From Qipengyuania qiaonensis (GTDB taxonomy: Bacteria; Pseudomonadota; Alphaproteobacteria; Sphingomonadales; Sphingomonadaceae), in NCBI RefSeq assembly GCF_019711515.1, contig NZ_JAIGNO010000011.1, positions 1-64,000 of the forward strand: DNA of 64,000 bases, given 5' to 3'. The notes beneath the pieces were generated by a model. That model was given only the letters and a program-made list of their open reading frames with translations. It searched no databases and was not told the DNA's origin. The stretch's first letter is position 1. Each line of letters opens with the position of its first letter. Of this stretch, positions 47,596 to 51,311 are shown one piece after another. A program made the translations under genes and the position numbers.

Positions 47596-47708
47596 CCTGT
47601 CATCGCGAGGAGGCCATCGGGGGCCGACGCGGCCATCCATGGCGCGCCCTCGCTCCGTGCCGCAAGGCTCGAAAATGGATTGCTGCGCCTGCGGCTCGCA
47701 ATGACCGG
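47596..47708. repeat. palindromic dispersed-type intergenic repeat
   Basis: A 113-bp element between crtB and the carboxylase gene. The ends CCTGTCATCGCGAG and CTCGCAATGACCGG are inverted repeats (12 of 14 positions), and internally ATGGCGCG and ATGGATTGC resemble the sub-repeats of the widespread alphaproteobacterial palindromes ending in CTCGCAATGAC. Probably a nonautonomous mobile or REP-like sequence; it may fold as a large hairpin. Confidence 0.6.
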
Positions 47709-47731
47709 GAAAATGGGTTAGCGCCCCGCCC

Positions 47732-49621
47732 ATGATCCAGAAGCTCCTTATCGCCAATCGCGGCGAGATCGCCTGCCGCATCATCCGCACCGCCCGCGAA
47801 ATGGGTATCGCCACCGTGGCGGTCTATTCGGATGCCGATGCCAAGGCGCTGCATGTGCGGCAGGCTGACGAGGCGGTGCATATCGGACCCTCGCCTGCGG
47901 CCGAGAGCTACCTCGTCGGCGAGAAGATCATCGCCGCAGCCAAGCAGACCGGGGCCGAGGCGATTCATCCGGGTTACGGCTTCCTGTCGGAGAATGCCGG
48001 GTTTGCCCAAGCGGTGATCGACGCGGGCCTTATCTGGGTCGGGCCCAAGCCGAGCAGCATCGAGGCGATGGGCCTGAAGGACGCGGCCAAGAAGTTGATG
48101 CGCGCGGCGGGCGTGCCGGTGACGCCCGGCTACGAGGGCGAGGACCAGTCGGTCGAGCGGCTGAAAAAGGAGGCCGACGCCATCGGCTATCCCGTGCTGA
48201 TCAAGGCGGTCGCGGGCGGCGGCGGCAAGGGGATGCGCAAGGTCGATGCGGCGGCGGATTTCGAGGCCGCGCTGGAAAGCTGCCGGCGCGAGGCCAAGGC
48301 CAGCTTCTCCAATGACGAGGTGCTGCTGGAAAAGTGGATCACTTCGCCCCGCCACATCGAGGTGCAGGTGTTCGGCGACAGCCACGGCAATGTCGTCCAC
48401 CTGTTCGAACGCGACTGCTCATTGCAGCGCCGCCACCAGAAGGTGATCGAGGAAGCCCCCGCCCCCGGCATGGACGAGGCAACCCGCGAAGACATCTGCG
48501 CCGCCGCCGTGCGCGCCGCCAAGGCGGTCGATTACGAGGGAGCAGGCACGATCGAATTCATCGCCGACGCCAGCGCAGGCCTGCGGGCGGATCGCATTTT
48601 CTTTATGGAGATGAACACCCGCCTGCAGGTCGAACATCCTGTGACCGAGGAAATCACTGGGGTAGACCTCGTGGAGTGGCAACTGCGCGTGGCGAGCGGC
48701 GAGCCGATCCCGCTGAAGCAGGAGGAGCTGAGCATAAACGGCTGGGCGATGGAAGCGCGGCTTTACGCGGAGGATCCGGCGACTGGGTTCTTGCCGAGCA
48801 TCGGGAAGCTCGAAGTTTTTCAGCTGACGGATTACGACTGTCGTGTCGAAACAGGTTACGAAGCTGACGACACCGTTTCGCCTTTCTACGATCCTATGAT
48901 CGCGAAACTCGTGATCAAGGCAGATACCCGAGAGGAAGCGGCGGAGATGCTCGGCGGTGCCAGCGCTTGCGCTGCTGTTTGGCCGGTCAAGACCAACAAT
49001 TACTTCCTCAGCCGTTTGGCATACGATCCTGATTTTCAGGCGGGCAGGATAGACACTTCGTTCATTGCCGAACGACAGGATCGCCTTGTCGAGAGAACAG
49101 CGCCGCAGGAGAAGACGCTGGCTGCTGGCTTGAAGGAATTGATCGCGCCCCGTCAGCGCCGACGCTCACTCGCTCCGACTAAGCGCGCACCAGAAGGCTT
49201 CCGGCTCAACGCGCAAACCAAGGCCGATTATGCAGTGCTGGTCAACGGCCAAGTCAGACAAGTTGCTTTGAGCGATCGTGGAGCGACCTTCTGGCAGATC
49301 ATTCACCACGGTTCGGATGTTCTCGTTTCGGACGACGATGGCCAGCTTCACAGTTTTACTCTTAGTGACCGGACACTTGGCGGCACTCACTCCGCCGCCG
49401 ATGGCGCGATCCTCGCGCCGATGCCGGGCAAGGTCATCGCGGTAGATGTGGCCGAGGGCGATACGGTCACCGCGGGCCAGCGGCTGCTGGTGCTCGAGGC
49501 GATGAAAATGGAACACGCGCTCACCGCGCCCTTCGACGGGACCGTAACCGAACTCAACGCCGCCAAAGGCGGGCAGGTGCAGGTCGAGGCGGTGCTGGCG
49601 GTGGTGGAGCCGAGTGAGTGA
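47732..49621 (+). CDS. acyl-CoA carboxylase biotin carboxylase/biotin carrier subunit
   Basis: A 629-residue subunit combining biotin carboxylase (LIANRGEIACRIIRTAREMG; GGGGKGMRKV ATP-grasp; EMNTRLQVEHPVTEE) and, after a linker domain, a C-terminal biotin carrier with the lysine in EAMKMEHAL. It transfers carboxyl from bicarbonate to biotin for the partner at 49764-51311. The substrate could be propionyl-CoA or another acyl-CoA. Bases 48841-49380 are about 57% GC by hand count, against about 70% just after, a possible recombinant segment. The gene ends at the edge of a palindromic repeat. Confidence 0.92.
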   Translation: MIQKLLIANRGEIACRIIRTAREMGIATVAVYSDADAKALHVRQADEAVHIGPSPAAESYLVGEKIIAAAKQTGAEAIHPGYGFLSENAGFAQAVIDAGLIWVGPKPSSIEAMGLKDAAKKLMRAAGVPVTPGYEGEDQSVERLKKEADAIGYPVLIKAVAGGGGKGMRKVDAAADFEAALESCRREAKASFSNDEVLLEKWITSPRHIEVQVFGDSHGNVVHLFERDCSLQRRHQKVIEEAPAPGMDEATREDICAAAVRAAKAVDYEGAGTIEFIADASAGLRADRIFFMEMNTRLQVEHPVTEEITGVDLVEWQLRVASGEPIPLKQEELSINGWAMEARLYAEDPATGFLPSIGKLEVFQLTDYDCRVETGYEADDTVSPFYDPMIAKLVIKADTREEAAEMLGGASACAAVWPVKTNNYFLSRLAYDPDFQAGRIDTSFIAERQDRLVERTAPQEKTLAAGLKELIAPRQRRRSLAPTKRAPEGFRLNAQTKADYAVLVNGQVRQVALSDRGATFWQIIHHGSDVLVSDDDGQLHSFTLSDRTLGGTHSAADGAILAPMPGKVIAVDVAEGDTVTAGQRLLVLEAMKMEHALTAPFDGTVTELNAAKGGQVQVEAVLAVVEPSE

Positions 49622-49761
49622 TCCTCCCCGGCACGGGGAGGGGGACCGTCGAAGACGGTGGAGGGGCACCCGCCGCCGATCCGGACAATACAGATTGTAA
49701 GCCGCCGACGGTGCCCCTCCACCATGCTGCGCATGGTTCCCCTCCCCCGCCGGGGGAGGAT
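49621..49761. repeat. palindromic repeat bridging two carboxylase genes
   Basis: A 141-bp inverted repeat. The left arm (ATCCTCCCC, GGGAGGGGGACCGTCG, GTGGAGGGGCACC) is mirrored by GGTGCCCCTCCACC, GGTTCCCCTCCCCC and GGGGGAGGAT. It begins on the stop codon of the biotin subunit and ends at the start of the next gene. Its right end supplies GGGGGAGGA as ribosome binding site. Similar elements are common in Sphingomonadales and other alphaproteobacteria. Confidence 0.8.
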
Positions 49762-49763
49762 TG

Positions 49764-51311
49764 GTGAGCTGGGAAAAGGAACTCGAGGAACTGCGCCACC
49801 GCGAGGCGCTGGCCGAGCAGATGGGCGGCGAGGAAAAAGTCTCGCGCCAGCACGGTCGTGGCAAGATGGATGCCCGCGCCCGGCTCGCCGCGCTGGTCGA
49901 TCCCGGAACTTTCCGCGAAATCGGCAAGATCGCCGGGCGCGGCTCGTATGACGAGGACGGCAATCTCGAAGCCGTCCTCCCCGCCCCCTTCCTCTTCGGC
50001 AAGGCCACGATCAACGGCCGTCCCGTAGTCGCCACGGCGGACGACTTCACCATTCGCGGCGGCGCGGCCGATGCCGGGATCAGCCGCAAGATGGTGCAGG
50101 CGGAGAAGATGGCGCACGAGCTAAAGCTCCCCATCATCCGCATGATCGACGGCACGGGCGGCGGCGGCAGCGTCAAGACGCTGGAGCAGATCGGCGCGAC
50201 CTATATTCCCGCCGTGCCCGGCTGGTCGGATGTGGTGAAGAACCTCGAGACGGTGCCGGTGGTCGCGCTGGCGCTCGGCCCCACCGCCGGTCTCGGCGCG
50301 GCGCGCACCGTCGCCAGCCATTATTCGGTCATGGTCAAGGGCCTCAGCCAGCTTTTCGCCGCCGGGCCCGCAGTCGTCGACGGTCTGGGCGAAAGCTATC
50401 GCGGCTCCACCGATCACCAGCAGGCGAAGGAGGATCTTGGCGGCAGCGGCATCCACACCCGGAACGGCGTCGTCGACGACGAGGTAACGAGCGAGGCCGA
50501 AGCCTTCGCCCGCGCGCGGCACTTCCTGTCATTCATGCCCGAACATGTCGGCCAGTTGGCTCGACGCGCAGAGTGTTCGGACCCTGTTCGGCGCCGGGAT
50601 CATACGCTAGATTCACTCGTCCCGCGCGACCCGAAGCAGGTCTATTCGATGCGCCGGTGCCTCGACATGGTCTTCGATAAGGGCACGGTCTTCGAAATCG
50701 GCCGCATGTGGGGCCGCGCCTGCATCACCGCCCTCGCCCGGCTCGACGGCTGGCCGGTGGCGGTGCTGGCGAGCGACCCCAGCTACCTCGGCGGCTCGTG
50801 GGAAGCGAAGACCAGCGAGAAGGTGGAGCGCTTCGTCAAGCTCGCCGACCGGTTCCGCCTGCCCATCGTCCACCTGGTCGACAATCCCGGCTTCATGATC
50901 GGGCGCGAAGCCGAAATGGCCGGCACGATCCGTTACGGCGTGCAAGCCATGAACGCGATTTACAAAGCCAGCGTCCCACTCGCCAGCGTCGTACTGCGCC
51001 GTGCCTACGGCATCGCCGGCAGCGCGATGAGCAATGCCGAAACGTATCAGTACCGCTATTGCTGGCCCTCGGGCGACTGGGGCAGCCTGCCCATCGCGGG
51101 CGGACTGGAGGTCGCATACAAGTCCGACCTCGAAGCCGCCGCCGATCCCGCGGCGGAACTGGAGGCCATACGCGCAAGGTTGGACAAGGTAACCAGCCCT
51201 TTCCGCAGCGCCGAGCGGTTCAATGTCGAGGATATCATCGACCCGCGCGACACCCGCCCGCTCCTGTGCGAATTCGCAGGACTTGCATGGAGACGGCTGG
51301 CAAGCGAATAG
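49764..51311 (+). CDS. acyl-CoA carboxylase carboxyltransferase subunit (propionyl-CoA type)
   Basis: A 515-residue carboxyltransferase with the two crotonase-like halves of PccB/MccB enzymes: RHREALAEQMGGEEKVSRQHGRGKMDARARL at the N-terminus, IDGTGGGGSVKTLEQIG, and, in the second half, VDNPGFMIGREAEMAGT with RRAYGIAGSAMS. It moves the carboxyl group from biotin to an acyl-CoA. Chain specificity cannot be told; propionyl- or methylcrotonyl-like. GTG 49764 follows the GGGGGAGGA of the repeat; TTG 49761 is an alternative. Confidence 0.9.
   Translation: MSWEKELEELRHREALAEQMGGEEKVSRQHGRGKMDARARLAALVDPGTFREIGKIAGRGSYDEDGNLEAVLPAPFLFGKATINGRPVVATADDFTIRGGAADAGISRKMVQAEKMAHELKLPIIRMIDGTGGGGSVKTLEQIGATYIPAVPGWSDVVKNLETVPVVALALGPTAGLGAARTVASHYSVMVKGLSQLFAAGPAVVDGLGESYRGSTDHQQAKEDLGGSGIHTRNGVVDDEVTSEAEAFARARHFLSFMPEHVGQLARRAECSDPVRRRDHTLDSLVPRDPKQVYSMRRCLDMVFDKGTVFEIGRMWGRACITALARLDGWPVAVLASDPSYLGGSWEAKTSEKVERFVKLADRFRLPIVHLVDNPGFMIGREAEMAGTIRYGVQAMNAIYKASVPLASVVLRRAYGIAGSAMSNAETYQYRYCWPSGDWGSLPIAGGLEVAYKSDLEAAADPAAELEAIRARLDKVTSPFRSAERFNVEDIIDPRDTRPLLCEFAGLAWRRLASE

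Follow-up and report, generated by a model that had tools for sequence, protein, structure and literature searches.

Introduction

In E. coli, repetitive extragenic palindromes (REPs) located within 15 nucleotides (nt) of a stop codon have been linked to ribosome stalling and to less translation of the gene that precedes them (Liang et al. 2015, as cited in the available text of PMC12306157). Translational coupling in which the Shine-Dalgarno (SD) site of the downstream gene is hidden is described for synthetic translational coupling elements (synTCE) in the accessible part of PMC11602170. Reinitiation after a stop codon fades by about 20-40 nt, although contrary reports over 73-850 nt are cited in the available sections of PMC10666635. 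Here we describe a 64,000-nt stretch of DNA from Qipengyuania qiaonensis (contig NZ_JAIGNO010000011.1, positions 1 to 64,000), called the window, in which a palindromic repeat of a family that we call F6 occupies the gap between the genes for the alpha subunit and the carboxyltransferase (CT) subunit of an acyl-CoA carboxylase. The repeat has dispersed copies and nuclease-bearing long forms, it holds the sole SD-like site at the usual distance from the CT start, and palindromes recur at the same junction in related genomes. We read it as a gene-less F6 copy in an alpha/CT junction that Erythrobacteraceae repeatedly fill with unrelated palindromes, giving an SD lock that would be opened by the ribosome terminating on alpha. 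Taken as a whole, this reading has in our judgement about an even chance of being correct.

The F6 repeat between the alpha and CT genes

The alpha gene (47732 to 49621, forward strand) ends with a TGA stop codon at 49619-49621, and the CT gene (49764 to 51311, forward strand) begins with GTG. The alpha product is a fusion of biotin carboxylase and biotin carrier domains with 629 amino acids (Pfam PF00289, PF02786, PF02785 and PF00364), and its closest PDB chains are the alpha subunits of methylcrotonyl- and propionyl-CoA carboxylase. The CT (beta) product contains PF01039 and is closest to the propionyl-CoA carboxylase beta chains. On their sequences, alpha and CT are the two subunits of one acyl-CoA carboxylase, encoded in one operon. 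The window also offers CT an alternative in-frame start, TTG at 49761, which is less likely because the orthologs mostly start M-S-W, M-T-W or M-G-W.

The F6 repeat is 141 nt long (49621 to 49761) and is recognised by its inverted arms and by its dispersed copies. Its first base is the A of the alpha TGA and its last base lies 2 nt before the GTG. An initial annotation of this DNA had claimed that a repeat fills the gap from stop to start, and these coordinates bear that out; the start that it gave, at the last stop base, also stands, but its end at 49764 was placed 3 nt too far. An inverted-repeat search found two outer arms of 27 nt each on the forward strand, 81% complementary. The left one (49621 to 49647) carries a CCTCC that is predicted from the fold to pair with the SD site, and the right one (49735 to 49761) terminates in GGGGGAGGAT. 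Within them lie two inner arms of 14 nt, also on the forward strand (49657 to 49670 and 49710 to 49723), which are 100% complementary to each other. The self-complementarity of the gap palindrome has a z of 11.8 against shuffles. The predicted RNA fold of 49590-49800 has an energy of -119.2 kcal/mol (z -5.3), and none of 200 shuffles folded equally well. At the Rfam gathering thresholds the window gave no match.

The end of the element, GGGGGAGGA, had also been proposed to serve as the SD site. This site is present as GGAGG at 49755-49759 (forward strand), inside the repeat and 4 nt ahead of the GTG, a spacing that we judge to be rather short. The repeat does supply the site: BLAST matches of the window element to dispersed copies cover, for example, positions 1-139 and 1-140 of its 141 nt, and since they extend to the last bases of the element, the SD site would have arrived with the repeat. 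At the left edge, the G before the stop codon and the TGA form a GTGA (49618 to 49621, forward strand) identical to the GTGA with which CT starts (49764-49767). Where the window has two such motifs, seven orthologs have one NTGA in which the genes overlap, and at the focal site the doubled NTGA is also required by the coding frames.

An intergenic stem as strong and GC-rich as this one might also be an intrinsic terminator or part of a promoter for CT. However, a scan for terminator-like and sigma-70-like sites found neither in the gap, and the only 2 terminator-like hits between 49500 and 49900 lie on the opposite strand inside the alpha gene (49511-49531). We regard this explanation as very improbable.

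Dispersal of F6 and its nuclease-bearing long forms

The hairpin pattern CCTCCCC-N5-GGGGAGG occurs at 11 places in this genome, while the reversed control pattern occurs at none, and BLAST detected F6 matches in at least 22 of the 60 genomes of the genus. The window element is closest to dispersed copies (the best two of 15 tried, at 79-80%) and not to the 5 F6 copies that occupy the alpha-CT gap of other loci. F6 units also occur in pairs. Twelve pairs with units about 430-475 nt apart were picked, each from a different genome, and 11 were examined (L264-L267, L268 from this genome, L270-L273, L186 and L194). In each of them a DUF559 relative is encoded between the two units (tblastn E 4e-26 or better); the open reading frame (ORF) is intact in 8 of them, with 106-141 amino acids, and PF04480 (DUF559) was confirmed for each of the three ORFs tested (E 3e-27 to 1e-24). 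The pair of this genome lies at C11:241625-242098 (L268:426-900). The pairs L186, L267, L268 and L270-L272 share an orthologous site, and L264 and L265 share another. In some pairs the inner GGAGGGG end of the repeat is followed by the ATG of the ORF. Because all the F6 pairs examined enclose DUF559 sequence, we interpret the window element as the gene-less version of a nuclease-bearing F6 element.

F6 is not alone in this arrangement. Pairs of F2 units, from a second palindrome family that other species have at the alpha-CT junction, lie 365-455 nt apart and enclose a GIY-YIG ORF of 94-95 amino acids (PF01541, E 5e-12 to 7e-16) in all six that were fetched (L259-L263 and L269). One chromosomal site is occupied by F2 with GIY-YIG in a relative (L260) and by F6 with DUF559 here (L268), both flanks being about 81% identical. 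It is our guess that the nucleases mobilise the repeats. A RAYT (REP-associated tyrosine transposase) as the F6 mover was rejected: this genome has one Y1 transposase gene (PF01797), and no F6 hairpin lies in the surrounding 3,357 nt. Reading by eye revealed no obvious target-site duplication at other F6 loci, several of which show one end only. Dispersal was searched for F1, F2, F3, F4, F6 and F7; all of these but F7 proved to be dispersed in these genomes, and F7 has only partial matches outside the junction.

Palindromes at the alpha-CT junction of related genomes

CT orthologs were found in 40 of the 60 genus genomes, and 80 named loci were added. The genus set was reduced to 38 loci by the removal of L054, which meets a contig end, and L086, which has no adjacent alpha gene; in L086 an F2 palindrome lies further upstream. 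The named set was likewise reduced to 38, as 23 loci were already in the genus set and for 19 an upstream alpha gene was not found, in some cases because the contig is short. Among the resulting 76 distinct Sphingomonadales loci, the alpha-CT junction holds palindromes in 50. These were sorted by eye into about ten families, a number that depends on this sorting: F1 (6 loci), F2 (5), F3 (8), F4 (9), F5 (8), F6 (6), F7 (3), F8 (1), F9 (3) and F10 (1). The remaining loci have a spacer of 55-58 nt, which we call F0 (15), a 4-nt ATGA or GTGA overlap (7), a 4-nt gap (1) or another arrangement (3). The last three are a spacer of 44 nt and two larger inserts that each contain an ORF. In L056 the insert has an ORF with RTX-like repeats, and in L102 it has an aldo/keto-reductase-like ORF followed by the F10 palindrome just before the CT start; the naming of both ORFs is our own reading.

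The initial annotation had called a palindrome that serves as coupling device in an enzyme operon unusual, and as a one-off this is not borne out by a junction that is so often filled. It had also proposed a comparison with orthologous loci that lack the repeat. These turned out not to share its GC-rich SD site and spacing: in the 15 short-spacer orthologs the site is AGGAG at a spacing of 11 (13 loci) or GAGG at 6 (2 loci), and in seven others the genes overlap by 4 nt. The F0 spacer contains a CGTGCC/GGCACG stem (RNAalifold -3.7 kcal/mol), which is weak and has little covariation, and a conserved hairpin is not claimed for it.

Strong palindromes, defined as gaps with z of at least 5 against shuffles, were then counted at seven conserved junctions of the same loci. 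This junction-by-junction scan was chosen since a strict scan missed the window's own element and a low-threshold scan was swamped by coding sequence. At alpha-CT, where two of the 76 loci with gaps above 500 nt were left out, 28 of 74 gaps passed. The counts elsewhere were 1/67 for Bcr-dinB, 4/63 for CT-Bcr, 5/51 for crtB-alpha and 0/37 each for crtY-crtI, crtI-LOG and LOG-crtB. The difference between alpha-CT and the six neighbouring junctions together (10/292) gives a Fisher p of 3e-14, or 1e-6 when only gaps of at least 50 nt are taken, and both values are too small because related loci share ancestry and are not independent. When the F1-F7 gaps were compared by BLAST with 38 genus regions (up to 20 kb each, 738 kb in all), they matched the carriers' focal gap, the F1 gap matched in addition one F0 locus (L049), and only 5 matches fell outside the focal gap, 4 of them just upstream of alpha.

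Two further junctions were used as controls, with 30 loci each from the 59 and 58 genomes that had a match. The accB-accC junction, from the same kind of enzyme, has no palindromes (0/30); its gap is 3-11 nt in all 30 measured loci and therefore has no room for one. At the trpB-trpA junction (L199-L228), 24 of the 25 loci measured have varied DNA of 132-569 nt, with z of at least 5 in 2, and one locus (L212) has a 4-nt overlap. Chosen as a control, trpB-trpA thus proved hypervariable in its own right, and hypervariable junctions are not unique to the carboxylase operon.

Turnover at the junction

On a tree built from alpha and CT DNA, at least 48 state changes are needed for the 14 junction states. 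Shuffled state labels require 55 on average, and none of 200 shuffles was as low as 48; the states are thus inherited, but weakly. They include 9 changes for F4, 8 for the overlap or 4-nt gap and 6 for F6. The count may be distorted by recombination because the tree was built from the genes that adjoin the gap. Vertical descent of a single old F6 insertion was rejected as a full account, given the 6 changes for F6 and a window copy nearest to dispersed copies.

Why does this junction change so often? It may simply be a neutral landing place that tolerates insertions and that recombination perhaps carries from one species to another. The palindromes would then be selfish, and the SD site would be kept because the gene needs one. 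The weak inheritance of the states suits this explanation, as do the varied DNA between trpB and trpA and the differences between close relatives. L062 and L072 have flanks that are about 95% identical, yet one carries F3 and the other F2. In the sister loci L058 (F1) and L075 (F4), identity is 78% over the last 50 nt of alpha, the lowest value among 20 windows, while over the first 50 nt of CT it is 86%, the third lowest of 20; this dip around the gap hints at a short exchanged tract. A tolerated landing site accounts for the turnover equally well as the lock does.

Other observations fit a neutral landing place less well. Other junctions stay short (crtY-crtI 37/37, LOG-crtB 37/37, crtI-LOG 33/37 and accB-accC 30/30). 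A comparison of 60-nt flanks speaks against exchange: of the 17 genus carriers that are not the sole member of their family, only 6 had a nearest neighbour from that family. In four pairs (L062/L074, L061/L072, L063/L068 and L121/L162) the element is 98-100% identical while the 150-nt coding flanks are 90-93% identical, which would fit constraint on the element or transfer of the bare element. Over all F1-F7 pairs, however, the gap is more alike than both flanks in only 14 of 117. On balance we consider the neutral explanation a serious one that is somewhat more probably wrong than right.

A possible SD lock

The window SD site is predicted to be 9% unpaired at all five flank lengths tried, and it pairs in these folds with bases 1-5 after the alpha stop. 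A recognisable SD core is present in 41 of the 50 palindrome carriers. Among these 41, the site is predicted to be at most 35% unpaired in 34, and its partner lies 0-26 nt after the alpha stop in 32. All 6 F6 carriers have an SD site that is at most 9% unpaired by prediction. In the F0 short-spacer loci the site tends to be more open (0.25 to 1.0 unpaired).

Our reading is the following sequence of events. An F6 insertion would have opened an ancestral 4-nt NTGA overlap. As the repeat carries an SD site of its own and disrupts neither reading frame, the insertion would have been tolerated. The SD site in the mRNA would pair with the left end of the repeat beside the alpha stop, which would hold CT translation low until this end is opened by a ribosome that completes alpha. 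A ribosome that terminates on alpha would cover about 10-15 nt past the stop and could thereby release the SD site. Since the gap is 142 nt, fresh initiation at the unmasked SD site would be expected rather than simple reinitiation. As a model, an SD lock that the terminating ribosome opens is plausible.

Several points weigh against the lock and the element history given here, in addition to the sorting of families by eye and the shared ancestry of the loci mentioned above. Nine of the 50 carriers (in F2, F7 and F10) have no SD core, and an SD site that is at most 0.35 unpaired also occurs in 4 of the 15 short-spacer loci. When the stop region was forced open in the predictions, only 8 of the 41 carriers gained 0.3 or more in SD exposure, and at the window site the result ranged from 0.07 to 0.99 depending on the footprint and the flank length. 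A buried SD site is no independent proof of function, because the geometry of a gap-filling palindrome makes its two ends pair with each other. As no target-site duplication was visible at other F6 copies, the doubled NTGA is an unproven insertion footprint, and the count of DUF559 sequences covers F6 pairs only. The proposal in the initial annotation that the hairpin could set the subunit ratio thus stands in one part, the predicted burial of the SD site, and is weakened in the other, as the predicted opening swings with the fold window and the footprint. Its term "coupling device" is not established either, in view of the carriers without a recognisable SD core.

A hairpin at a stop codon could also act on alpha and not on CT, by stalling the terminating ribosome, which would lower alpha, or by shielding the mRNA end, which would stabilise it. 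The structure does start at the alpha stop codon, and E. coli REPs within 15 nt of a stop reportedly stall ribosomes (available text of PMC12306157). Against this, several F1 carriers have an SD partner that starts only 11-12 nt beyond the stop, and the long palindrome is absent from the orthologs with a short spacer or an overlap. We think an action on the upstream gene unlikely.

The SD lock and the gene-less F6 copy might be part of a wider pattern. Palindromic mobile elements of Sphingomonadales, each family with its own small stand-alone nuclease (DUF559 for F6, GIY-YIG for F2) instead of a RAYT, may compete for the same gene-end sites. At the carboxylase junction their gene-less forms would have taken the place of the 4-nt overlap, acting as a hairpin switch on the SD site, and would have been swapped between species, with a hairpin and a buried SD site usually retained. 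This wider proposal is offered tentatively and is rather unlikely to hold in full.

Other features of the locus

A piece of the F1 repeat family lies between crtB and the alpha gene (47676 to 47710; BLAST match, 34.6 bits), and longer F1 and F4 matches were found at the crtB-alpha position in L052 and L075. The alpha gene itself has a hypervariable stretch at about residues 361-560 (48812-49411), where the window protein is 20-48% identical to 35 others; identity is 87-94% over residues 1-320 and 79-89% beyond residue 560. To judge by these alignments, the stretch looks like a domain replacement or diversifying change.

Comparison with known systems

Among the publications that a literature search reached, few of them subscription papers, there was none on this junction, none describing how unrelated palindrome families alternate at a single operon junction, and none of DUF559 or GIY-YIG genes between such palindromic repeats. 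The 76 loci form a natural series in which one two-subunit operon junction has been rebuilt many times from unrelated palindromes. The junction may be viewed as a docking site whose repeats may adjust the make-up of an enzyme, and whether intercistronic palindromes are junk or regulators becomes a question that can be tested directly at one site. The ties of two palindrome families to two small nuclease families suggest a spreading route other than RAYT transposases and may help to explain the role of lone DUF559 and GIY-YIG genes.

F6 resembles the REPs, the REPINs (REP doublets forming hairpins) and the BIMEs (bacterial interspersed mosaic elements), as portrayed in the accessible parts of PMC3116915 and PMC2817692, in being a dispersed, short palindrome with two inverted units and a spacer, one predicted hairpin and some copies near gene ends. 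It differs from them in that no RAYT link is seen in this genome, that F6 pairs enclose DUF559 and F2 pairs GIY-YIG, and that this genome has few copies. A 5' tetranucleotide of the GTAG/GTGG type is described for each REP (available text of PMC2817692). The window element has no GTAG or CTAC, and its GTGG lies inside the unit, not at its end. Like miniature inverted-repeat transposable elements, F6 has terminal inverted repeats and exists in gene-less form beside longer gene-carrying relatives; reading by eye showed no obvious target-site duplication, and it differs from them in that the gene carried by the longer forms belongs to a nuclease family and not to a known transposase. With the synTCE type of coupling F6 shares an SD site that is here predicted to be buried next to the upstream stop, but such coupling is most effective at -1 to 5 nt (accessible part of PMC11602170) and stop and start are here 142 nt apart. 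The stop-proximal REPs of E. coli, as cited in the available text of PMC12306157, share with F6 a palindrome that starts at the stop codon, and here the palindrome also holds the SD site of the next gene.

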